Positions 1 through 35,855 of a DNA stretch of 37,630 nt are shown in pieces. The notes under the pieces are model-generated. The model was not told the origin of the DNA. It saw nothing but the letters and a program-made list of their open reading frames with translations, and did not search any database. The DNA is from a virus. Both the position numbers and the translations under genes were made by a program. The stretch is taken from positions 1 to 37,630 of IMG/VR virus record IMGVR_UViG_3300043427_002006; one strand, written 5' to 3'. Position 1 is the first letter of the stretch, and each line of letters opens with the position of its first letter.

Positions 1-1476
1 GAATCAAAAAGAATCAAAGCAATTTTAGAGGATTTATTTAAAGAAAAATTAGACATAAATACCAACCTACAAATGTGGGCAAGAGGTATGTGTAAGTATG
101 GTGATGATTTTGTTTATCTAAAAGTAGACCCTGAAAAAGGAGTCGTTGGATGTCAACAATTACCGAATATCGAAATTGACAGAATTGAAGGTTCAAGTGC
201 TTCTGGTAAAAATTTAGCACCTGTTCCCCAAGATAGTAAATTACCAACAAGAGAGTTAAGATTTAGTTGGAAGAACAAGGATATGGAATTCCAAGCTTGG
301 GAAATAGCTCATTTTAGAATTTTAGGTGATGATAGAAAGTTACCATATGGTACTTCTATGTTAGACAAGATTAGAAGAATTTGGAAACAACTTTTACTTG
401 CAGAAGACGCGATGTTAATTTATAGAACATCAAGAGCTCCTGAAAGACGTGTATTTAAAGTGTTCGTTGGTAATATGGACGATAAGGATATTGAACCATA
501 CGTACAACGTGTAGCAAATAAATTTAAAAGGGACACTGTGGTCGACCAAAAAAATGGTCAAGTGGATATGAGATATAATCAAATGGCTGTAGACCAAGAT
601 TATTTCATACCTGTTCGCGACCCCGCTCAAACTAATCCAATTGAAACATTAGCAGGTGCAGCCAATTTAGGTGAAATCGCCGATATTGAGTATATCCAAA
701 AAAAGATGTTAGCCGCTCTTCGTATTCCAAAAGCGTTTTTAGGATTTGAAGAGGTTGTTGGTGATGGTAAGAATTTAGCGTTAATGGATATTCGTTTTGC
801 AAGAACCATTAATAGAATACAGAAATCATTAATCCAAGAATTAAATAAAATAGCATTAATTCATTTATATCTTTTAGGTTTAGAGGACGAATTACATAAT
901 TTCAGTTTATCACTAACTAACCCATCATCTCAGTCTGATTTACTTAAGATTGAACAATGGAAAGAAAAGATTACCCTTTATAAAGACGCAACATCTGACC
1001 AATCACAACTTGGTATCTTACCTGTTTCACATACTTGGGCTAAGAAGAATATTCTCGGATTTAGTGATAATGAAGTTATACTTGATTTACAACAACAAAG
1101 ACTTGAAAGAGCTATTGGTGGTGAATTGGCTGCAACTGCAACAATCATTAAACGTTCAGGTGTATTTGATGAGGTGGACGCTAAGTATGGTATTCCTGAA
1201 GAAGAAAGAGAGAAATTGGAAGCTGCAGGTGCAGCAGGTGGAGCCGAAGCGGGAGCCGCTCCGGGAATGGATATGGGTGGTGGAGGAGCCGCCCTTGGAG
1301 CTGAAGCTGCACCTCCGGGTGGCGAAGCTGCACCATTGAGTGAATCAAGAAAAGAGAAGATATTATCTATGTTGAGTGATAAAGATGAAAAATTGGAGGA
1401 CCTATTTGACATTAATAAAGCACAACAGAATATTTATGAAATAGAAAATAAATTAAACAACTTACTAAACGACTAA
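1..1476 (+). CDS. 20: Portal protein, T4 gp20-like (5' end outside window)
   Basis: Forms the dodecameric portal at the capsid vertex that nucleates prohead assembly and through which DNA is packaged. The reading frame is open from base 1, so the 491 visible codons lack only the extreme N-terminus (T4 gp20 is about 524 residues). Family-type segments are visible: 'HFRILGDDRKLPYGTSML', then 'RAPERRVFKV', 'RYNQMAVDQDYFIPVR', and 'YIQKKMLAALRIPKAFLGFE' in the region where T4 has its LGEIDDI-type portal core. The last 100 residues contain a Gly/Ala/Pro-rich low-complexity stretch and then a charged helical tail, which is unusual for gp20. The next gene begins 2 bases after the stop, and the protease, scaffold and capsid genes follow, as in T4. 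Identity is firm; only the N-terminus is missing. Confidence 0.93.
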   Translation, partial: ESKRIKAILEDLFKEKLDINTNLQMWARGMCKYGDDFVYLKVDPEKGVVGCQQLPNIEIDRIEGSSASGKNLAPVPQDSKLPTRELRFSWKNKDMEFQAWEIAHFRILGDDRKLPYGTSMLDKIRRIWKQLLLAEDAMLIYRTSRAPERRVFKVFVGNMDDKDIEPYVQRVANKFKRDTVVDQKNGQVDMRYNQMAVDQDYFIPVRDPAQTNPIETLAGAANLGEIADIEYIQKKMLAALRIPKAFLGFEEVVGDGKNLALMDIRFARTINRIQKSLIQELNKIALIHLYLLGLEDELHNFSLSLTNPSSQSDLLKIEQWKEKITLYKDATSDQSQLGILPVSHTWAKKNILGFSDNEVILDLQQQRLERAIGGELAATATIIKRSGVFDEVDAKYGIPEEEREKLEAAGAAGGAEAGAAPGMDMGGGGAALGAEAAPPGGEAAPLSESRKEKILSMLSDKDEKLEDLFDINKAQQNIYEIENKLNNLLND

Positions 1477-1478
1477 CA

Positions 1479-2216
1479 ATGAGTAAATTTGGGGTTTTAA
1501 AAACTAAGATATTAAAGAAACTCACAGAATCATATTCAAATCAGAATAAAACTGAGATGAAGGAAATTCTTAAAATGATTAAAGAGAATAAGGATTTTAA
1601 AGAGTTATATCTTTTTTACGAAGAAATCGAAAACAAATATTTTGAAGATAAGGACACTGCAAAATTATATGTGGAAGAATTGAATACAATTCTAAAGAAC
1701 AAATCAAAAAATATATCTGATTTTTGTAATAAATTGAATACGAAATTAAATGACATTGAGATAAACGAAAATGAAGTTTACTCAAGTCTTGATACGTTAT
1801 TAGAAGAAGATAACTTATCGAATATTGATAAGAAGGTTCTTTCTAAGAAAAAATTAGTCGGTCATTTAACGACTTCTAAACAAACAAACGAAGACTTATC
1901 GTCTGATGTTGTTGTAAATGAATCTTTACTGCACGCAGTATTAGTTAATAATTTTAACGTTTTATATTCAAACAACCTAAACGAAGAACAAAAAGAAGAA
2001 TTAAAAAATATTCTTTCAATGAATCAAGAAGATTTAGATAAGAATATGTCAGAATTAAAAGAAAATGTTTTAGACCAAGTATCCAAGATTTTAACTGAAA
2101 ATTCAGACCAAGACCTTTCAAAGAAGTTAACACAAGTTCAAGACGAGGTTAACAAAATGACATTTAGTAAAATTAATTATTTCAAACTTAAAGAATTAAA
2201 AAATGGTCTTAATTAA
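1479..2216 (+). CDS. Helical protein following the portal gene, possible prohead core component
   Basis: A 245-residue protein, very rich in Lys, Glu, Asn and Leu, predicted almost entirely helical, with no transmembrane segment and no enzyme motif I recognise. It starts 2 bases after the portal stop codon, so it is almost certainly co-transcribed and translationally linked. In T4 the genes after 20 (67 and 68) encode prohead core proteins; position and composition make a core or head-assembly role plausible, but I see no sequence match that proves it. The 3' end lies in a perfect palindrome shared with the convergent bS21 gene, so both proteins end in the same residues (NGLN). Function is unassigned. 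Confidence 0.7.
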   Translation: MSKFGVLKTKILKKLTESYSNQNKTEMKEILKMIKENKDFKELYLFYEEIENKYFEDKDTAKLYVEELNTILKNKSKNISDFCNKLNTKLNDIEINENEVYSSLDTLLEEDNLSNIDKKVLSKKKLVGHLTTSKQTNEDLSSDVVVNESLLHAVLVNNFNVLYSNNLNEEQKEELKNILSMNQEDLDKNMSELKENVLDQVSKILTENSDQDLSKKLTQVQDEVNKMTFSKINYFKLKELKNGLN

Positions 2217-2228
2217 GACCATTTTTTA
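2197..2228. terminator. Bidirectional intrinsic terminator, perfect 32-base palindrome
   Basis: Bases 2197-2228 form a perfect inverted repeat centred between 2212 and 2213. The core is TGGTCTTAATTAAGACCA flanked by A-runs on the left and T-runs on the right, so RNA from either strand gives a hairpin followed by U-rich sequence. It includes the stop codons and last codons of both the upstream helical protein (+) and bS21 (-). Read as an intrinsic terminator separating convergent transcripts. Confidence 0.75.
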
Positions 2229-2400
2229 TTTTCTCTGAATAGATTGCTTTGAGTTTTTCTTTACGTTTTTTAACGGAGGGTTTTACAAACTCTTCCCTTT
2301 CTCTTAATTTTTGGATTTGCTTAATTTTTTGAACTTTTTGTTTGTACGTTCTTAACGCAAACTCAATTCCTCGCTCTCCCTTTACTTCGATTATAATCAT
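2209..2400 (-). CDS. rpsU: Ribosomal protein bS21 (phage-encoded)
   Basis: A 63-residue basic protein with the bS21 pattern from end to end: N-terminal 'MIIIEVKGERGIEFALRTYK', then a second helix, and the hallmark 'EEFVKPSVKKRKEKLKAIY'. bS21 binds the 30S platform near the 3' end of 16S rRNA and acts in translation initiation. Phage bS21 genes are known from pelagiphages and uncultivated viral genomes. In Flavobacterium ribosomes bS21 with bS18 and bS6 helps sequester the anti-Shine-Dalgarno tail, so a phage copy could alter initiation. The gene is a single minus-strand insert between head genes, with its own late-type motif (TATTTATA on the minus strand, 2420-2427) 20 bases before the ATG and no Shine-Dalgarno. 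Its last 8 bases overlap the convergent upstream gene. Confidence 0.92.
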   Translation of the reverse strand: MIIIEVKGERGIEFALRTYKQKVQKIKQIQKLREREEFVKPSVKKRKEKLKAIYSEKIKNGLN

Positions 2401-2419
2401 TTGTTTTTAATTTATATTT

Positions 2420-2427
2420 TATAAATA
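2420..2427 (-). promoter_or_regulatory. Late-type TATTTATA motif before bS21
   Basis: TATTTATA on the minus strand, ending 20 bases before the bS21 ATG. It matches the motif found before most structural genes here, so bS21 is predicted to be expressed late. The region is very AT-rich, which lowers confidence in any single instance. Confidence 0.45.
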
Positions 2428-2500: not shown

Positions 2501-2926
2501 ATGAAAACCGGAAAATTTATACCACTGGGACACTATGGTAATGTAAAAATCGGATATGGAACTGTAGATTACAAAAACTTAAAAACCATATATATAAAAT
2601 TAAATTCTTGGCTTTTACCTGAAACCGATACTAAAGACTTCGATGTCATAATTTCAAAATCACGTAGAGAAATTAAAAACTATATCTATTGTTTGGATAA
2701 CGACTTATTTAGAAAAGAAAATATAGTCGATTTAGACATTAGAACTAAAGGAATCAAACTCGAAAAGAAGTCATTTATGAATTTAGAGATAACATTATTT
2801 GTTAAAAATCATTTTGACATTCGCGATAAAAAAGTAAAGAGTAGAATTAAAGAACTATCCGAACACATCGTTGATACTAATCTAAAAGACAAAAATCTGT
2901 TTAATTTCTATAAGAACAAGAAATAA
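2501..2926 (+). CDS. Hypothetical protein between bS21 and the prohead protease
   Basis: A 141-residue soluble protein with no family I recognise. The N-terminal half (to about residue 50) looks beta-rich and the C-terminal half helical and strongly basic, ending in a Lys/Asn-rich tail. An ATG at 2488 in another frame is closed after 17 codons, so 2501 is the better start. It has a host-type promoter of its own upstream and is followed by a separate late-type motif before the protease gene, so it is probably expressed on a different schedule from its head-gene neighbours. No function can be assigned. Confidence 0.6.
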   Translation: MKTGKFIPLGHYGNVKIGYGTVDYKNLKTIYIKLNSWLLPETDTKDFDVIISKSRREIKNYIYCLDNDLFRKENIVDLDIRTKGIKLEKKSFMNLEITLFVKNHFDIRDKKVKSRIKELSEHIVDTNLKDKNLFNFYKNKK

Positions 2927-2964: not shown

Positions 2965-3651
2965 ATGAAAATTTTAGGTCCTCACGAAACGGGTAAAGGA
3001 ATCTTAATAGAGTACGACGCCGGACATATATCACCTGAAGAAAACAAGCAAATCATTAAGGAAATGAGAGAACTTGATTTTTCTCAGGACATAGTTTTAT
3101 ACGCTGTTTTACAAAAATACGACACTCCAAATAAGAACGGAAGGATTTATCCTGAAATGTTACTGAAAAGAGAAAACGAAAAATACCAAACGCTCATTAA
3201 AAAGGGTGGCGCATTAAACGAATTAAATCACCCATCATCTTCACTTATCGATTTAGATAGGGTTTCCCATTCAATTCTTGAAACTTTTTGGGATGGTAAG
3301 ATGCTTATGGGTAAAATTAAACTTTTCACTTCGCCGGGTTGGAGAAAGATGGGAATTGTTTCCACAAAAGGAGACCAAGCTGCAATGTTAATTATGAACG
3401 GAGCCACTTTAGGTATCTCTTCAAGAGGTGTTGGTTCATTAAAGAATGTTAAGGGTCAAAACATAGTACAAGAAGATTTTGAACTTGTTTGTTTTGATTT
3501 GGTGTCATCTCCATCTACACCAGGTGCATATGTGTTCCCTGATTTATCTGACAGGGACAAATATCAAGAATCTATTGATGAAAAATCTGATGAAGGTATG
3601 AACAAGATGAAGTCATTAATGGGTAAACTAGATAGTTTTTTATCTAAATAA
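2965..3651 (+). CDS. 21: Prohead core protease, T4 gp21-like
   Basis: The maturation protease that digests the scaffold and trims capsid and internal proteins inside the prohead. It has 228 residues (T4 gp21 has 212). The serine protease core of the herpes/T4 prohead protease fold is visible: 'NGRIYPEMLL' near residues 58-67, the catalytic His in 'LNELNHPSS' (H89), and the catalytic Ser in 'GISSRGVGS' (around 152-153). A conserved segment follows, 'FDLVSSPSTPGAYV'. The C-terminal ~30 residues are charged and probably self-processed. It lies directly upstream of scaffold and capsid, the standard T4 order, and is preceded by GTATTTATAG. There is no Shine-Dalgarno. Assignment is firm. Confidence 0.93.
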   Translation: MKILGPHETGKGILIEYDAGHISPEENKQIIKEMRELDFSQDIVLYAVLQKYDTPNKNGRIYPEMLLKRENEKYQTLIKKGGALNELNHPSSSLIDLDRVSHSILETFWDGKMLMGKIKLFTSPGWRKMGIVSTKGDQAAMLIMNGATLGISSRGVGSLKNVKGQNIVQEDFELVCFDLVSSPSTPGAYVFPDLSDRDKYQESIDEKSDEGMNKMKSLMGKLDSFLSK

Positions 3652-3703: not shown

Positions 3704-3713
3704 GTATTTATAG
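3704..3713 (+). promoter_or_regulatory. Late-type motif GTATTTATAG before the scaffold gene
   Basis: Identical ten bases to those at 2941-2950, here 25 bases before the scaffold ATG. This is probably a second entry point for transcription of scaffold and capsid, which are needed in large amounts. Confidence 0.6.
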
Positions 3714-3738: not shown

Positions 3739-4971
3739 ATGAGTCAAAAATCTATTTTAGAACAAGCTTTACTTCAAGTACAAACTCTTGAAGAAGCAGT
3801 TAAGCAAAATGCAAAGGGTATACTTGCTTCTACAATGAAACAAGAACTAAATGATTTGCTTAAAGAATCAGAAGACGAGGGGAATATTGAATCTCCTGAA
3901 GTTGAAGAACAAGATGTACCAGAAATTGGTGATGAAGAAACTCCAACAGATGACGAAGAATCAGACGAAATTGCAGATGAACCTGAATCTGACGAAGAAG
4001 GTGAAGATGAAATGGGTGCTGATGATGAAGAAGAAATACCTGCGGATGACGAGGAAATGCCTGCTGATGACGAAATGGGCGTTGAAGACGAAATGGGTGC
4101 TGATGATGAAGAGGGAGAAGATGTTCTTGATATGACATCGGCTTCTGACGCTGAAGTACTTAAAGTTTTCAGAGCTATGAAGCCTGATGATGGTATTGTC
4201 GTTAAAAAAGAAGGTGATAAAATTTCTTTGAATGTTGATGATGAGGAGTACATTATTAAGCTCGGTGACGAAGGAATGGGTCTTAATGAAGGATGGGATG
4301 AATCTGAAGGACAATATGATGAGTCTGATGTAGACACATCTATGTTGGAAGATGATGATATCGAACCTTCTGATGAAGACGGAACCGTTTTTGAAATCGA
4401 ACTTGACGAAGAGGAAGCAGAAGTTATTGAGCCTGTTGAAGGTGAAGTTAAAAAGGTTGAAGCAACCGAAGCGTTACGTACAAAATCAAACCGTCACGGA
4501 GATAAAAACGGCCAAAATCGTACTGGTTTACCGGCTAAAAATGTTTACAAAGCGGGTACAGTAACTAATGAGGAAGTATCAACACTTAAAAAACAAGTTC
4601 AAGTTCTTAGAGAAAAGAATGAAGAGTACAAAAAAGCTCTTGTCCTTTTTAAAGAAAAATTAAACGAAGTTGCCACTTTCAACGCAAATTTAGCATTCGC
4701 TACCAAATTGTTTACAGAACATTCAACAACTAAACAGGAGAAAATGAATATATTAAAAAGATTTGATTCAGTTTCTACTATAAAAGAGTCCAAAAATCTT
4801 TATTCTACAATTAACTCTGAATTAGACAATAAAAAACCAATGACAGAGGCTATTGTAGATAAAATTACATCTAATCCAACAACTTCTTCTACTGAGGTTC
4901 TTTCAGAGTCAAAGGCTTATGAAAATCCACAATTCAGAAGAATGAAAGATTTGATGAATAAAATAAAATAA
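3739..4971 (+). CDS. 22: Prohead scaffold/core protein, T4 gp22-like
   Basis: The internal scaffold around which the capsid is built and which the gp21 protease then destroys. It has 410 residues, longer than T4 gp22 (about 270). The extra length is an extremely acidic Asp/Glu block (about residues 45-135) with repeated 'DDEE' and 'EMGADDEE' units, followed by a further acidic region to about 235. The C-terminal third is a coiled coil starting near 'LKKQVQVLREKNEEYKKAL' and continuing into the family-typical 'NLAFATKLFTEHSTTKQEK'. Candidate gp21 cleavage contexts (Ile/Leu-x-Glu) are frequent, including 'SILEQA' at the N-terminus. The acidic repeats create long false open frames in other frames. 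Confidence 0.87.
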   Translation: MSQKSILEQALLQVQTLEEAVKQNAKGILASTMKQELNDLLKESEDEGNIESPEVEEQDVPEIGDEETPTDDEESDEIADEPESDEEGEDEMGADDEEEIPADDEEMPADDEMGVEDEMGADDEEGEDVLDMTSASDAEVLKVFRAMKPDDGIVVKKEGDKISLNVDDEEYIIKLGDEGMGLNEGWDESEGQYDESDVDTSMLEDDDIEPSDEDGTVFEIELDEEEAEVIEPVEGEVKKVEATEALRTKSNRHGDKNGQNRTGLPAKNVYKAGTVTNEEVSTLKKQVQVLREKNEEYKKALVLFKEKLNEVATFNANLAFATKLFTEHSTTKQEKMNILKRFDSVSTIKESKNLYSTINSELDNKKPMTEAIVDKITSNPTTSSTEVLSESKAYENPQFRRMKDLMNKIK

Positions 4972-5001: not shown

Positions 5002-6726
5002 ATGGGAGCATTATTAGAATCAGGTATGGTTGGTAACATCGGTCTTAAGCACCTTCGTGTTATCAAAGAAGATACCATTAAAAAATGGGACGAGTTGGGA
5101 TTCCTTGAGGGTCTTGGCGGTCACCAAAAAGATAACATCGCGCAATTATACGAAAACCAAGCATCTTACTTAATCAACGAAGCAGCAGTATCTGACGCTT
5201 CAGGTTCATTTGAGACAGTGGTTTTCCCAATCATTCGTCGTGTTTTCTCTAAATTATTAGCGAACGATATCGTATCCGTACAAGCTATGAACTTACCAAT
5301 CGGTAAATTGTTCTACTTTGTACCTAAAATCCAAAACAGAAATGGTGTTGACCACTACGCACCTTACAAGATGCCAGGTAACACTGACGCAGCAACAGCT
5401 GGTTATGATTCAGGTTTGAATCTATATGATAGATTCTACGAGTCAGGAGATGGTAACAGCCCTGATACAGGATTGTTCGATTACTCTAAAGGTTCTTATT
5501 CAGGTGTAACTTTAGCAGGTGCTGCGGTTGTAGCATTCTCTAACGGTGTTGTATCTGATGTAACAAGAGCATCATTAACTGGTACTACTAAAGATTCATT
5601 AGTTGTTAAATTCTCAGGTTTCACTAAAGATGGTCAAGGTAAACTTATCGGACCTAACGGTTCTGTAATGGATACTGAAGAATTCTTAGCTGGTGCTGAG
5701 ATTTTCGTTAGTGGTTCTTCTAAGAACTTCAACATTGTAACTCAAAAATACGGTAAAGGTATTATCGAGTACGGTGCAAAAGCTACATCTGCATTCCCAG
5801 GTGGTAGATTCCAAGATGTTTGTGATGAGGAAGGTGTAATTTACATCAATGTAGATTTACAAAACTACAACGGTGCAACTACAGGTTTTACCGCATCTCA
5901 ATTATCTAATACATTCCAAGCTTCAGACGTTACTTTGACTTTCAGAGTATACAATGACTTAGAATTTGAAGATGAAATCGGTGAAGTATCTTTCGATTTA
6001 GAATCTGTTACAGTTTCTGTAGTAGAAAGAAAATTAAGAGCTAGCTGGTCTCCAGAATTAGCACAAGACGTAAGTGCATTCCACAACATCGACGCTGAAG
6101 CTGAGTTAACAGCATTGTTATCTGAGCAAATCGCAGCTGAGGTTGACCGTGAAATCTTACGTGACCTTCGTAAAGGTGCCGCTTGGACAGCTAAGTGGGA
6201 CTACAACGAATGGAAATACGGAAACGGTGGTTCTTCATTCGCAGGTTACACTCAAAAAGACTGGAACCAAACATTAATCACTAAGATTAATCAGATTTCA
6301 GCTCAAATCCATAAAACTACTTTGAGAGGTGGTGCTAACTGGATTATCGTATCTTCAGAAGTATCTGCAGTATTCGATGATTTAGAATATTTCCACGTAT
6401 CAAACGCTCATCCTGAGCAAGACCAATACAATATGGGTATTGAGAAAGTAGGTACATTAGCAGGTCGTTACCAAGTATATCGTGACCCTTACTTCCCAGC
6501 AAACAAAATTTTGATTGGACACAAAGGTAAGTCATTGTTAGACGCTGGTTATGTATACGCACCATATGTTCCACTTCAATTAACTCCAACAATGTATAAT
6601 CCTTTCAATATGACCCCAATTAAGGGTATTATGACTCGTTACGCTAAGAAAATGGTTAACAACCGTTACTTCGGTGTAATCACAGTGAGAGGTGTACAAA
6701 CGTTCGATATGAACACATTAAGATAA
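5002..6726 (+). CDS. 23: Major capsid protein, T4 gp23-like
   Basis: HK97-fold shell protein, 574 residues (T4 gp23 has 521). The N-terminal propeptide ends in 'SYLINE' followed by 'AAVSDA'. This gives an Ile-x-Glu|Ala site after Glu60 that matches the gp21 cleavage rule and the position of the T4 cut (Glu65|Ala66). After it comes the family core 'FPIIRRVFSKLLANDIVSVQ' and 'MNLPIGKLFYFVP'. The C-terminal half has the strongly conserved 'ELTALLSEQIAAEVDREIL', 'ANWIIVSSEVSAVFDDLEYF' and 'MTRYAKKMVNNRYFGVI'. Residues about 165-320 form an insertion-like beta-rich region. Codon use is visibly more C/G-ending than in neighbours, as expected for a very highly expressed gene. It is followed by a strong terminator. 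Confidence 0.97.
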   Translation: MGALLESGMVGNIGLKHLRVIKEDTIKKWDELGFLEGLGGHQKDNIAQLYENQASYLINEAAVSDASGSFETVVFPIIRRVFSKLLANDIVSVQAMNLPIGKLFYFVPKIQNRNGVDHYAPYKMPGNTDAATAGYDSGLNLYDRFYESGDGNSPDTGLFDYSKGSYSGVTLAGAAVVAFSNGVVSDVTRASLTGTTKDSLVVKFSGFTKDGQGKLIGPNGSVMDTEEFLAGAEIFVSGSSKNFNIVTQKYGKGIIEYGAKATSAFPGGRFQDVCDEEGVIYINVDLQNYNGATTGFTASQLSNTFQASDVTLTFRVYNDLEFEDEIGEVSFDLESVTVSVVERKLRASWSPELAQDVSAFHNIDAEAELTALLSEQIAAEVDREILRDLRKGAAWTAKWDYNEWKYGNGGSSFAGYTQKDWNQTLITKINQISAQIHKTTLRGGANWIIVSSEVSAVFDDLEYFHVSNAHPEQDQYNMGIEKVGTLAGRYQVYRDPYFPANKILIGHKGKSLLDAGYVYAPYVPLQLTPTMYNPFNMTPIKGIMTRYAKKMVNNRYFGVITVRGVQTFDMNTLR

Positions 6727-15329: not shown

Positions 15330-16031
15330 TTATGAATTTAGAAAACCAAAAATAACACCATCGTACATTTTTCGATATTTTTTAAGAGCAACCCTTATTT
15401 CTTTAGTGTTCAGGGAGGTCATTTCTCTTAACGATAGTAATATTAAGTTTTTATTGAATTTATTACCATCACCAACTTGGAATATTCTATCGAAGTTGCT
15501 AAAAATTTCAAGTAGGGCGAACCCTAATTTTTGTTCGTTTTCACTGAGTTCTTCAGTGTTTATAAAATCCTCTAATTGAACTGTCATCTTTATGATAACA
15601 TCTTTGTAGTCTAATACCGATTCATCTATTGTATATGAATACTCGGGATTGTCCTCCATATCACTAGATATGTCATCATAAGACACTGTTCTATTGTTGT
15701 CTTTGGTATCTTTCTGTATCGCACCCATAAGGTAATTCTTACAGATGGTACCAAAATAAGAATACGCCTTATGATTCTTGGTGTGGTCGAACTTACTAAT
15801 CTTAGTCATTAAAAATGACATAGTATCTGTATGAATTTCTTCAAATTCCATATCTTTTCTATATAATTTATAACGTCGAATAATTGATTCGACCATTATA
15901 ATCAGGGGTTCTCGTAAATATTCGTTGAATATCTTGTTTCTTTCTGCCTCATCAACACTTTCAAGGTATTTGACTACTGCCTTCTCTTGGTCCTCCCCAA
16001 AATAAATTTTTTGGGTCCTTTTTCTTGGCAT
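15330..16031 (-). CDS. 55: Late-transcription sigma factor, T4 gp55-like
   Basis: A 233-residue minimal sigma factor that would direct host RNA polymerase to phage late promoters. Residues about 62-112 ('EFEEIHTDTMSFLMTKISKF' and then 'NHKAYSYFGTICKNYLMGAI') align by eye with sigma region 2 of T4 gp55, where the sequence runs NPHAYITQACFNAFVQRI. It is longer than gp55 (185 residues) and keeps a C-terminal helical part ('LILLSLREMTSLNTKEIRVA') that looks like a helix-turn-helix, as in region 4 or SigH-type factors. The start overlaps the stop of the preceding glycosyltransferase by one base. Its presence supports a dedicated late promoter, of which the recurring TATTTATA motif is the obvious candidate. 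Confidence 0.72.
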   Translation of the reverse strand: MPRKRTQKIYFGEDQEKAVVKYLESVDEAERNKIFNEYLREPLIIMVESIIRRYKLYRKDMEFEEIHTDTMSFLMTKISKFDHTKNHKAYSYFGTICKNYLMGAIQKDTKDNNRTVSYDDISSDMEDNPEYSYTIDESVLDYKDVIIKMTVQLEDFINTEELSENEQKLGFALLEIFSNFDRIFQVGDGNKFNKNLILLSLREMTSLNTKEIRVALKKYRKMYDGVIFGFLNS

Positions 16032-24631: not shown

Positions 24632-25418
24632 TATCTTCCATTTGTTTTAAAATAACTTTTGGTGAAATACCATTGTCCTTTAACGTTTGAAGTAACACTT
24701 TAATCTGTCTTTTAATTATTGGGTTTAAATCTTCTTGATTTTCTTTTTCTAAAACATCGTTTTCATTTGATTTTTTAGCTATAATACTTTCCAAATATTC
24801 CTCAATAAATTTTTTAGGGTTTTCAATTAATCTAACTTTATCGGTGTTAGCTAATTTTTCATCATAACCCATTTTTTCTAATCTTTCTTCAGCCTCATCG
24901 TCAGATAACCCTAATTCATTGGTAAAATGATTTTCTGCGGTATCAAAATCCACATCATTACCCATAGTATCTTCATAACCCAACGATTTATTCATTGCGA
25001 TTTCTAATAAATCCTCTTTTGATAATTCGTATCCTTCAGCCCAATATTTCAAACTTCCTATGTTTTTACTTGCCGGTCCAAAAGCACCGAAAGTACCGAT
25101 TGTATTCATATATGACTGAACATAATCATCTGTGGTGTCTTTCGCGGTTATACCTTTAGTTGCGATATTTGATGGTTTTTCACTTCTTGCGATGTTCCCA
25201 TCAACGTCAACTATTTCATCAACTTCCTTTTCCACTTTATCAGGTATCTTATCAAAATCGGTTTTATCAGAATACTCTTTAGCCCACTTTGACCATTTAT
25301 TACCTTTTTTTCCTTTCTTTCCCTCTTTTTTTTCTTTTGCTGCGTTAGCAAAGAATAGCCTTTGTTGTGCTTTTGAGGCAAATTTCTCTTCAATTACTTG
25401 TTTTATAAACTGATTCAT
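24624..25418 (-). CDS. Phage protein with SKAQQR-type N-terminal module
   Basis: A 264-residue, very charged protein. The N-terminus 'MNQFIKQVIEEKFASKAQQR' combines a helix with a Val-Ile-Glu|Glu context and the 'SKAQQRLFFANA' motif seen at the start of many small phage and bacterial basic proteins. A Lys-rich run follows ('KEGKKGKKGNKWSKWAKEYS'). The middle contains 'MNTIGTFGAFGPASKNIGSL', and the C-terminal half is acidic then helical ('NPIIKRQIKVLLQTLKDNGI'). It is the first gene of a leftward five-gene run and has a late-type motif 12 bases upstream, back-to-back with the fibre operon promoter. Function unknown; late timing suggests virion or assembly. Confidence 0.6.
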   Translation of the reverse strand: MNQFIKQVIEEKFASKAQQRLFFANAAKEKKEGKKGKKGNKWSKWAKEYSDKTDFDKIPDKVEKEVDEIVDVDGNIARSEKPSNIATKGITAKDTTDDYVQSYMNTIGTFGAFGPASKNIGSLKYWAEGYELSKEDLLEIAMNKSLGYEDTMGNDVDFDTAENHFTNELGLSDDEAEERLEKMGYDEKLANTDKVRLIENPKKFIEEYLESIIAKKSNENDVLEKENQEDLNPIIKRQIKVLLQTLKDNGISPKVILKQMEDNE

Positions 25419-25430
25419 TAAAAATCTTTT

Positions 25431-25442
25431 TATATAAATATC
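25431..25442 (-). promoter_or_regulatory. Late-type motif GATATTTATATA (minus), divergent pair
   Basis: On the minus strand, 12 bases before the ATG at 25418. With the plus-strand copy at 25456-25466 it forms a divergent pair only 13 bases apart, serving both flanking operons. Confidence 0.6.
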
Positions 25443-25455
25443 AAACAGAGGGAAA

Positions 25456-25466
25456 GATATTTATAG
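25456..25466 (+). promoter_or_regulatory. Late-type motif GATATTTATAG (plus), divergent pair
   Basis: GATATTTATAG. The TATTTATA box ends 6 bases before the ATG at 25471, so a start at the usual distance would fall on the A of the ATG. Confidence 0.6.
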
Positions 25467-25470
25467 AAGT

Positions 25471-26916
25471 ATGAATACCCAAAATATTTTAAAGTTTTAC
25501 GGTTCGAAGTTAGATATCAGGTTAGATAGCTCTGAATTTTATGATTATGAGGTTACAAAAACAGAAAATGACTATAATTCAGACGTTTTAGACCTGTCAA
25601 CATCCATAACATATACCGCATTAACCATAAATGAGTCGTTAAATGGTTTTGGGTGTTCAAGAAACACTATCAAATTAACTGAATACGATAATAGAACTAA
25701 TGACCCGTCTTATATATATTCGGGGTTGTCAGCGACAGTTACATATTCTTCCTTCGTCAATCATATATCCCCAACATATCAACATACTATATTAAATGAT
25801 GATGTGTATGAATATGAGGGATTAACAGGAGAGACTCACTACTTTACTATAACGGCTTTTAATCAATCTTTAAGTATTCATACAGGATTTACCGCAACAA
25901 ATGAAACAGATTTAATTTTAGGATTTGTTTCGGGAACAACATCAATTGAAAAATGTGAAGGTAGATTAGATTCTCCGTCGTATTGTTGTCCGTTTCCACC
26001 AAAATTAAGTAATAAACCTTGGGCTTATCAATTTATTGACCCCATTGTTAATGGTTGTAGTCCATTTATCAAAAGGAGAACAGAAAAGGGTTGGACTCTT
26101 GACTTTATTTTTAATAGGGAAAGTTTACCTTGGTCATCTGGTGGAGTTTTTTATTACTTTGGAACCCGTGGCTCTTCCAATATAGATGATTACGCAGATA
26201 ATAATTTATCTTTTGGGTTTACTTCAGACAGAAGAATAAGGTGGACGGCTATCAGATATTCGGGAGAATGTGTTAACAACGCCTATACCGAAAGTTATTA
26301 TGTTGATTCAGACCAAACAGTTCCATTATGTACAACAGGAACCACCAAAGACTTCAACGTTACTATTGTATTCGACAGATACAAAAGATATACTGAATGT
26401 AATTTGGAAAACGATGGCGGATGGAATGATTTATTAGGTTGGAGAATTGATGAGTATAGTGAAAGTGGGACCACATCCACTCAGTTGGTAACATATGACG
26501 CAGAAAACGAAGAATTAAATAAAAAATGGGCAGACGAGAGAGAACGAAGATTGGGTGTTTTAAAAATATACCTTAATGGTCGACCAATTTACAAAAAAGA
26601 GAATTGGGAAGAGGTTGTTCCTTCAAAAAGAGGAGTACAACCATTTATACAATCTTGGGGTGGTGGTACAGGTTTAATGACTCATCACGACGGTGTTTGT
26701 TGTTTTAATATGAAAACAATCAAGTATTATGAAGAACCGTTAGATTTTGTCCACGTTAGACATAATTTTTTAACGAGATTAAATCAATATGATTTCTTTA
26801 TTTGTGGATTAAATTGTGAAGATGATGTTTACACCATTGAGGGTGGTCATATTATAAATCAAAATGGTGAAATCATAACAAGTAGCGATGGTACACACAT
26901 ACTATATAGAACATAA
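25471..26916 (+). CDS. Tail fibre/adhesin-like structural protein, Cys-rich
   Basis: A 481-residue beta-rich protein with 12 cysteines, including 'SYCCPFPP' and 'VCCFN' pairs, unusual for a phage structural protein. The N-terminal half contains Thr/Ser/Tyr-rich strands. Residues about 200-400 ('GWTLDFIFNRESLPWSSGGV', 'LSFGFTSDRRIRWTAIRYSG', 'RLGVLKIYLNGRPIYKKENW') have the look of a concanavalin-like (LamG-type) jelly roll. The C-terminus 'HIINQNGEIITSSDGTHI' is a common fibre ending. It is followed at 26935 by a fibre protein and stands at the head of the operon. Probably host-surface binding; the exact structure is not recognised. Confidence 0.6.
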   Translation: MNTQNILKFYGSKLDIRLDSSEFYDYEVTKTENDYNSDVLDLSTSITYTALTINESLNGFGCSRNTIKLTEYDNRTNDPSYIYSGLSATVTYSSFVNHISPTYQHTILNDDVYEYEGLTGETHYFTITAFNQSLSIHTGFTATNETDLILGFVSGTTSIEKCEGRLDSPSYCCPFPPKLSNKPWAYQFIDPIVNGCSPFIKRRTEKGWTLDFIFNRESLPWSSGGVFYYFGTRGSSNIDDYADNNLSFGFTSDRRIRWTAIRYSGECVNNAYTESYYVDSDQTVPLCTTGTTKDFNVTIVFDRYKRYTECNLENDGGWNDLLGWRIDEYSESGTTSTQLVTYDAENEELNKKWADERERRLGVLKIYLNGRPIYKKENWEEVVPSKRGVQPFIQSWGGGTGLMTHHDGVCCFNMKTIKYYEEPLDFVHVRHNFLTRLNQYDFFICGLNCEDDVYTIEGGHIINQNGEIITSSDGTHILYRT

Positions 26917-26923
26917 AAACTAA

Positions 26924-26932
26924 TATTTATAG
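26924..26932 (+). promoter_or_regulatory. Late-type motif TATTTATAG
   Basis: TATTTATAG in the 18-base gap between two fibre genes. The box ends 4 bases before the ATG at 26935, too close for a conventional leader, so it is either a leaderless start or a non-promoter signal. Confidence 0.45.
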
Positions 26933-26934
26933 AA

Positions 26935-28020
26935 ATGGCAGAAAATAAACTAATATCAGAACTATCAGGAATAACAAACCCAAGTCTTACGGGGTATACC
27001 GTTTATGATGACGGAATAACCACCTACAGAATGGCTTTAGGTGAATTAGTGGCATACGTAACAGCCGAGGAAGGTGATTTTGCAACTACGGGAAGTAACA
27101 CATTTAACGGAAATCAAATAATTAGTGGTAGTTTAACAATTACAGGTTCCGTAACTGCCAATTCGTTTGTAGGTAATGGTAGTGGATTGACAAATTTACC
27201 GTTATCACATTTAACAACAACATCATCGTTTAACACATTTACGGGTAATACAATGTCAATGTTTAGTAGTTTGACCCCTGTTTTAAATGATATACAAACA
27301 TCAACAAGTTCTTTAAATTCATTTACCAGTAGTATTAATACTAAAACAGGTTCATTTGCAACCACTGGCTCAAATACATTTTTAGGTAGCCAAACCATAA
27401 AAGACGCCGTTATTATCGGTCCGAGTGGTAGTAGACACACCAATAATCCTGAAATGTTACACGTCCAAAATAGTGGAAGTTTTAATATTGCACATCTTCA
27501 AGGTAATGTTGACAATTATTTTCAACTTAATATAAAGAATGAAAGTTCTGCCGCAGGAGCAAGTACTGACTTTGTTGCAACTGCCGATAATGGTACTGAA
27601 AATTTACATTATGTTAATATGGGTATCAACTCAAGTGGTTTTCTTACACCGTTTTCAGTTGGTTATCAAAATGATGCGTACCTAATTAACAGAGGTAGAG
27701 ATTTATATATTGGTTCTTTGGATGGTCCGGATTATGACCATACTCACGTTCATTTATTTTCTTCTAATAGTTGGCAGAATCCACAGATTAGTATTATAAG
27801 TGAAGGAAAGATAGGATTTAACACAGGTTCTGTAACAACAGGATACACATATGAATTTAGTGGTAGTGTTAAATTAAATAATAATTTAAAAACGGATGGA
27901 TTTACAATATTAACAAATGTAACCTCAAGTTTTACAAATGACGCGGCGGCCGCGGCTGGTGGTGTACCATTACAAGGACTATATAGAAGTGGTAGTTACG
28001 TTTTAATTAGATTAACATAA
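26935..28020 (+). CDS. Tail fibre protein
   Basis: A 361-residue Ser/Thr/Gly/Asn-rich protein. Residues 1-45 ('KLISELSGITNPSLTGYTVY') look like an attachment domain. Residues about 48-170 contain repeated 'FATTGSNTF' units and 'ISGSLTITGSVTANSFVGNG' followed by 'SGLTNL', a pattern typical of trimeric phage and phage-like fibre shafts. The C-terminus ('GVPLQGLYRSGSYVLIRLT') is a common fibre tip ending. It has no enzyme motif. It lies between the Cys-rich adhesin-like protein and a small tail protein, with late-type motifs before both fibre genes. Confidence 0.78.
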   Translation: MAENKLISELSGITNPSLTGYTVYDDGITTYRMALGELVAYVTAEEGDFATTGSNTFNGNQIISGSLTITGSVTANSFVGNGSGLTNLPLSHLTTTSSFNTFTGNTMSMFSSLTPVLNDIQTSTSSLNSFTSSINTKTGSFATTGSNTFLGSQTIKDAVIIGPSGSRHTNNPEMLHVQNSGSFNIAHLQGNVDNYFQLNIKNESSAAGASTDFVATADNGTENLHYVNMGINSSGFLTPFSVGYQNDAYLINRGRDLYIGSLDGPDYDHTHVHLFSSNSWQNPQISIISEGKIGFNTGSVTTGYTYEFSGSVKLNNNLKTDGFTILTNVTSSFTNDAAAAAGGVPLQGLYRSGSYVLIRLT

Positions 28021-35329: not shown

Positions 35330-35337
35330 TATTTATA
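35330..35337 (+). promoter_or_regulatory. Late-type motif TATTTATA before the gp14-like gene
   Basis: CTATTTATAC context. The box ends 6 bases before the ATG at 35343, predicting a leaderless late transcript for the neck/terminator genes. Confidence 0.5.
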
Positions 35338-35342
35338 CGTAT

Positions 35343-35855
35343 ATGGAAAATAAATTACCCATAAACAGATTATCTAAATTCTTCTCAACAGACGACTTTG
35401 ACCTCCATATTCAAATGGGTCAGGAGTATCTACACGGAGATTTAAATATGAAATTGGTTCTATATAGAGTAGATAGAGCCAAAACAGATAAGGACGCAGT
35501 TTATGCAGAAGTGGGTAAGGATGAAATAAAATATTTCCCTCCTATTGAATTTAATGCGTTAGTTAAAATTGATGAGCCTAAAAATAGTTCTTATAAGAAT
35601 GGAACTCTTAGGTATTTGGAGCCCGGTAATTTACTAATCCAAGTGTATATAAAACACTTAGAAGAATTGAAGATAGATGTTAGATATGGTGATTATATCG
35701 CGTATCCCGAATCGGAAGGTCGAGTTAGATATTATAATGTTATTAATGACGGAAAAGTAACATCTGACAATAAACACAATCATTTCGGGTTCAAACCATA
35801 TTATAGAACAATAACTTGTGCACCTGTTCAGGAAGGTGAATTTAGAGGAGTTTAA
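35343..35855 (+). CDS. 14: Neck protein, T4 gp14-like
   Basis: A 170-residue structural protein, shorter than T4 gp14 (256). After 'NRLSKFFSTDDFDLHIQMGQ' comes a beta domain. 'VRYGDYIAYPESEGRVRYYN' and the following 'VINDGKV' line up with the GDLIYFP...LFEI...VEP stretch of T4 gp14, and the C-terminus 'PYYRTITCAPVQEGEFRGV' follows the same pattern. Two bases separate it from the gp15-like gene, and the sheath comes next, giving the T4 order 14-15-18 (16 and 17 not in this stretch). Moderately sure. Confidence 0.6.
   Translation: MENKLPINRLSKFFSTDDFDLHIQMGQEYLHGDLNMKLVLYRVDRAKTDKDAVYAEVGKDEIKYFPPIEFNALVKIDEPKNSSYKNGTLRYLEPGNLLIQVYIKHLEELKIDVRYGDYIAYPESEGRVRYYNVINDGKVTSDNKHNHFGFKPYYRTITCAPVQEGEFRGV

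Follow-up and report, generated by a model that had tools for sequence, protein, structure and literature searches.

Putative late promoter boxes, a shared terminator, and predicted leaderless packaging-gene messages around a phage-borne bS21 gene in T4-like phages of Bacteroidota

No other ribosomal protein is as widespread among phages as bS21. Chen et al. (2022; PMC9723584) described Bacteroidetes lake phages in which the bS21 gene lies on the reverse strand within the head-gene region, is co-transcribed late with the structural genes and highly transcribed, and encodes a protein with a conserved Tyr54 and divergent positions 21, 23, 25, and 28; they hypothesized that phage bS21 takes over the ribosomes late. 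According to a citation in the same paper, a pelagiphage bS21 was incorporated into E. coli 70S ribosomes, while promoter, sigma, leaderless, and TATA are terms that the paper does not mention. In Flavobacterium johnsoniae, rpsU is autoregulated through its Shine-Dalgarno (SD) sequence, ribosomes whose bS21 C-terminus is missing hardly start translation of SD-less mRNAs, and Tyr54 of bS21 helps to hide the anti-SD (PMC9976891). Transcription in this bacterium starts 4–5 nt past the −7 element (PMC6847099), and the late box of phage T4 is located at −13 to −6 (PMC2988020). The type of phage bS21 treated here, its late expression, and the takeover proposal are hence known since 2022 (PMC9723584), and the late reprogramming of initiation that a preliminary description of the present locus suggested would be an instance of that earlier hypothesis. 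What is new here is the sequence of the late promoter and the signs of near-leaderless messages for two packaging genes.

The window, i.e., the whole 37.6-kb stretch of DNA that was analyzed (IMG/VR record IMGVR_UViG_3300043427_002006), is by all signs a fragment of a virus genome, with the gene for the large terminase subunit (TerL) lying outside it. As in the phages of Chen et al., bS21 is encoded on the reverse strand between TerL/portal and protease/major capsid protein at a GC content of 31–34%, and the protein has Tyr54 and the phage-specific positions 21, 23, and 28. The identity of the gene, its late box, terminator, missing SD sequence, and conserved contacts were all read from the sequence, with the following features:

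1–1476, plus strand: portal gene (gp20-like; PF07230, E 1e-65), frame open from base 1, 5′ end cut by the window
1479–2216, plus strand: convergent conserved gene, 8-nt overlap with bS21, matching no family
2198–2227, no strand assigned: palindromic bidirectional terminator where the stop codons of bS21 and of its convergent neighbor overlap
2209–2400, minus strand: phage bS21 gene (P0001), 63 aa, PF01165 above cut-off, Tyr54 and KPSVxKR kept
2401–2419, minus strand: bS21 spacer and leader, A/T-rich, without an SD sequence
2420–2427, minus strand: putative late promoter box of bS21, TATTTATA, sense to bS21, 19 nt to the ATG, predicted leader of ~14 nt
2501–2926, plus strand: divergent conserved gene, matching no family
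2965–3651, plus strand: prohead protease S77 (PF03420), TATTTATA at 2942–2949, 15 nt from box to ATG
3739–4971, plus strand: probable scaffold gene (by position only), TATTTATA at 3705–3712, 26 nt to the ATG, major capsid gene next
5002–6726, plus strand: major capsid protein gene, gp23-like (PF07068, E 2e-75)
15330–16031, minus strand: putative gp55-like late sigma factor gene (phrog_234, E 6e-4; profile leading to T4 gp55)
25458–25465, plus strand: TATTTATA, 5 nt from the ATG of gene 25471–26916, neighbor divergent
26924–26931, plus strand: TATTTATA, 3 nt from the ATG of gene 26935–28020
35330–35337, plus strand: TATTTATA, 5 nt from the ATG of gene 35343–35855, neighbor divergent

Judged by its sequence, the ORF at 2209–2400 is a true phage-borne bS21. 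It matches PF01165 with an E-value of 4e-10 (39.6 bits vs a cut-off of 27), and its best solved relative is the F. johnsoniae bS21 (7jil_z; E 1.6e-9, 43% identity). The platform contacts of the Bacteroidia type, taken from papers later than the one on the F. johnsoniae ribosome structure, are present as Y54, K40-P-S-V, and K45-R46, and the ribosome-contact residues are retained in 47 aligned phage bS21 proteins. The window protein further has Q21, V23, K25 (within a lysine-rich stretch), and Q28; positions 21 (R to Q/N/S/H), 23 (F to V), and 28 (mixed to Q) differ consistently between phage (n = 47) and Bacteroidota (n = 80) proteins. All nearest cellular homologs belong to Bacteroidota, with Saprospirales types at 51–60%, and in a tree computed from only 64 columns and with no distant outgroup, 52 phage proteins form one branch among the Bacteroidota bS21 (support 100/97), beside Saprospirales-like and Robertkochia proteins. 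The bS21 signature that the preliminary description had recognized was thus confirmed by family match and nearest PDB chain, and the checks it had proposed on phylogeny (within the limits of so few columns) and on contact residues (Tyr54 and KPSVxKR) came out in its favor, as did its placement of a lone minus-strand gene amid head genes, since portal, S77 protease, and gp23-type capsid genes flank it. The profile search matched no family for the probable scaffold. Insertions are seen in this region of two related loci: the portal gene of L034 (8233–12831; L022 is the same phage) has apparently three intein-like ones, some of HNH type, in a single open frame of 1532 aa, and in L484 a GIY-YIG-like short frame located 1500–1650 nt 3′ of the portal follows the protease start, which points to the protease gene as the site of a homing insertion.

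Promoters were sought by counting every 8-mer in the 45 nt upstream of ORF starts. In the window, TATTTATA was the most enriched of all 8-mers: 10 of its 11 copies precede an ORF start by ≤45 nt and read in its direction (binomial p 8e-16). It was likewise the top upstream 8-mer in a 130-kb relative (23/47) and in immuto, an isolated phage of Flavobacterium (13/20), and when six genomes or contigs of bS21 phages were pooled, 142 of its 290 copies had such an upstream position (p 2e-143). As a control, the identical script returned the known late box TATAAATA as the top 8-mer in T4 (12/19). For the product of 15330–16031, the single-sequence matches to phrog_234 are weak (4 of 6 orthologs, best 1e-4) and the profile matches consistent, with T4 gp55 (7d7c_F, E 0.007) as the top PDB match of the family profile. 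Because of this enrichment before starts, the recovery of the T4 box by the same scan, and the gp55-like sigma factor encoded in the window, TATTTATA very probably serves these phages as their late promoter, in line with the late-type motif noted earlier in front of bS21. A literature search on TATTTATA as a phage promoter gave nothing relevant; we regard the late-promoter reading as strongly supported and new in detail. The arrangement shares with the T4 late system an 8-bp TATA-type box used in sense on either strand, head genes downstream, and a gp55-like protein, but TATTTATA departs from the T4 consensus TATAAATA, and boxes 3–5 nt from the ATG are numerous here and absent from T4 (14–28 nt). 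One box at 2942, before the protease gene, and another at 3705, before the probable scaffold gene that precedes the capsid gene, fit the separate protease and capsid transcription units of Chen et al.; the gp23-like capsid gene has no TATTTATA box of its own within 60 nt.

Fifty relatives carry the bS21 box at a conserved position in the form TATATTT(G/A)T, mostly as TATATTTGT, one base from the late box. The host −7 element of Bacteroidota promoters is TAnnTTTG. Since TATATTTGT equals this element, the bS21 promoter in these relatives may be a mixed host and late promoter rather than strictly late everywhere. Elsewhere in the window (25418–25471), two late promoters overlap divergently, with boxes at 25433 (minus) and 25458 (plus) serving two genes whose starts are 52 nt apart, a spacing conserved in relatives. 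In Rhodothermus phage RM378, whose host is related to Bacteroidota, the top upstream 8-mer was TTATTTAA (8/15), probably one more variant of the late box. The huge phages LR756501, LR756502, and LR756504, whose bS21 is 44–52% identical, were rejected as TATTTATA cases, as their upstream word is AATATATA; in huge uncultured bS21-bearing phages of 640–735 kb (L204, L205, and L206), this word was enriched in place of TATTTATA.

The sequence upstream of bS21 pairs hardly at all with the 16S rRNA tail, at +0.8 kcal/mol in the clade of the window and −0.9 kcal/mol on average (minimum −5.1) for 53 distinct phage bS21 upstreams, none of which falls below −6 kcal/mol as an extended SD, compared with −19 to −22 kcal/mol for printed examples of Flavobacteriales rpsU. 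SD-like pairing before the window genes as a whole lies below that of random sites, as in immuto and unlike in T4, which agrees with the earlier proposal of a non-SD host; SD sequences are depleted in the window, its relatives, and the relatives of immuto, and enriched in T4 and the Microcystis phage Mel-JY01. Whereas F. johnsoniae rpsU has an extended SD, the phage gene has none and hence stands outside the autoregulatory loop. The idea that the phage lost its SD as an escape from autoregulation is weakened, however, by the Saprospiraceae bS21 genes, the closest cellular ones, most of which also lack an SD; the absence may be inherited.

As a whole, these observations are best explained, more probably than not, by a phage bS21 that is made late, replaces or replenishes host bS21, and keeps ribosomes fit for SD-less messages. 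Transcription of the gene, alongside the head genes, would start at a T4-type late promoter of its own (TATTTATA), presumably read by the host RNA polymerase carrying the phage gp55-like sigma factor, and would end at the two-way terminator in the overlapping stop codons; the message would have a short A/U-rich leader with no SD. In the Flavobacteriales hosts that were checked, rpsU has a strong SD that lets bS21 curb its own production, a loop that leaves the phage copy unaffected. The phage protein, which keeps the residues that seat it on the platform (Tyr54 and KPSVxKR) and differs in the helix near the mRNA, would late in infection join the 30S subunit in place of, or in addition to, host bS21, and would keep the anti-SD tail masked and ribosomes able to translate phage messages that lack an SD. 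Under a late and unregulated phage supply, ribosomes would therefore stay replete and SD-less initiation would keep running. We infer the incorporation into 30S subunits, the timing in this phage, and the effect on translation from this set of features.

The altered N-terminal helix might instead make ribosomes prefer phage over host messages, a specialization that we consider possible but somewhat unlikely. The differences at positions 21, 23, and 28 between 47 phage and 80 Bacteroidota proteins, as published (PMC9723584), would suit it, as would phage late messages that are SD-less with short or no leaders where leaders longer than 10 nt make up 87% in F. johnsoniae (PMC6847099); yet host messages are SD-less too and offer no simple SD-based distinction, and the helix differences may stem from the Saprospirales-like origin of the gene.

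The suggestion that several phage messages look leaderless was supported for 3 of the 10 boxed genes of the window (25471, 26935, and 35343) but not for bS21 itself, with its box 19 nt away. Across the bS21 phages, box-to-ATG distances show two peaks, at 2–6 nt and at ≥10 nt, with few between. Within the bS21 group, the portal box is 3–6 nt from the ATG without exception (145 loci: 77 readable ones of a first scan at 3–6 nt and 68 new ones of a second at 3–4 nt), and the TerL box is at this distance in 103 of 108 loci. Each of the 52 distinct boxed TerL upstreams has a hairpin with a T-run that ends 1–2 nt before the box and whose stem varies on both arms in a covarying manner. Upstream transcripts would thus stop about 12 nt short of the TerL ATG, a space that the box fills almost entirely. 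As transcription in F. johnsoniae starts 4–5 nt after the −7 element, a spacing of 3–5 nt is compatible with a 5′ end at the AUG or right beside it; the geometry of T4 would allow a distance of 5 nt and strictly not one of 3 nt. Miscalled start codons do not account for the short portal spacings, as codons 2–15 vary mostly at third positions, and a portal start at Met15 was rejected because Met15 is missing in 9 of 49 sequences. The tube, sheath, protease, and scaffold genes of the bS21 phages have box-to-ATG distances of 15–40 nt, i.e., they are leadered; a leaderless layout is a feature of the low-copy products TerL and portal rather than of bulk capsid production. Leaderless expression of these two late genes is thus well supported, if indirectly, by promoter and terminator positions.

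We regard it as unlikely that the short spacing reflects an A/U-rich translation enhancer, or that the short-spaced genes are read only within longer transcripts. In favor of such readings, strict T4 geometry at 3 nt would place +1 inside the ATG. However, read-through is blocked by the terminator abutting the box in all 52 distinct boxed TerL upstreams, two short-spacing genes of the window face divergent neighbors (gene 25471–26916 receives no read-through from upstream for this reason), and the F. johnsoniae start 4–5 nt after the −7 element (PMC6847099) fits distances of 3–5 nt. We would give about even chances to a large clade of T4-like Bacteroidota phages in which the variant late promoter TATTTATA yields leaderless terminase and portal messages where it lies close to the start codon, and leadered ones for head and tail genes of high copy number where it lies further away, with the position of the promoter coding for the dosage of late proteins on SD-ignoring ribosomes that receive bS21 from the same regulon.

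Two other groups of phages share the box. Immuto (MW353175) has T4-like head genes, the TATTTATA late box, no SD, and gp55-like relatives in its group, but its portal and TerL boxes are 16–17 nt from the ATG, corresponding to leaders of ~11 nt, and bS21 was found neither in its head region nor in two long contigs of its group. Mel-JY01 and its relatives (L208–L287) are T4-like phages with TATTTATA and with bS21 on the head-gene strand, but they have SD leaders (AGGTGA), portal boxes mostly 25–36 nt from the ATG, and a host group other than Bacteroidota.

The preliminary description had also coupled bS21 to leaderless late expression; on such a coupling, phage bS21 would enable ribosomes to translate the leaderless TerL and portal messages. 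We consider this very improbable and reject the coupling as a general rule. It would be consistent with the portal boxes, which lie at 3–6 nt in the bS21 group (145/145 loci) and at 13–31 nt in the immuto group, which has no bS21 (80/80), and with short spacings among boxed genes in 53/161 vs 6/59 cases (Fisher p 5e-4, a value to be read with caution, as it assumes independence of the genes), but the two groups amount to a single evolutionary contrast. At three loci of the same phage group (L478 and L485, identical in sequence, and L471), bS21 is cleanly lost between the same flanking genes and was found nowhere else in these records (one of them 168 kb and incomplete), yet the portal distance of 3 nt is kept, and L478 also retains TerL at 3 nt with its abutting terminator. 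The Mel-JY01 group has bS21 and uses SD leaders, the bS21 gene of the window is itself leadered (~14 nt predicted), and so are high-copy head and tail genes including scaffold, protease, sheath, and tube. Portal scans for a bS21-less sister closer than immuto gave members of the same clade only, these three lacking bS21 at the locus. Because of these three loci, bS21 is not indispensable.

The terminator at 2198–2227 encodes the C-terminus KNGLN of both bS21 and the convergent gene, whose last codons overlap by 8 nt inside the palindrome, with T-runs on both strands. Across 13 distinct forms, 98.8% of the stem cells are paired, and 7 cells show double changes (T-A to C-G and T-A to A-T) vs 2.2 in shuffles. 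In L109, L113, and L116, the hairpin is lost together with the C-terminal motif and the C-termini differ, so that terminator DNA explains the conserved KNGL better than an adaptation to the ribosome; at the three loci without bS21, the convergent neighbor still ends in KNGL and has no shared terminator. While Chen et al. take the conserved C-termini as functional, they reflect at least partly a constraint on DNA. That bS21 is a low-effect passenger kept for the shared terminator in its 3′ end, as its DNA-dictated KNGL C-terminus and its occasional absence might suggest, is hardly credible given contact residues kept in 47 aligned proteins, one origin with long retention, and the high bS21 transcription published (PMC9723584).

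For phage bS21 more generally, the terminator is a warning against taking a conserved C-terminus, as the literature has done, for a ribosome-binding adaptation. The promoter map predicts leaderless messages, cheaply and in a testable way, for a phylum in which cellular messages have leaders, and with a defined late promoter and a place outside the host SD-based control of bS21, the idea of a late takeover of ribosomes becomes testable in the tractable F. johnsoniae.
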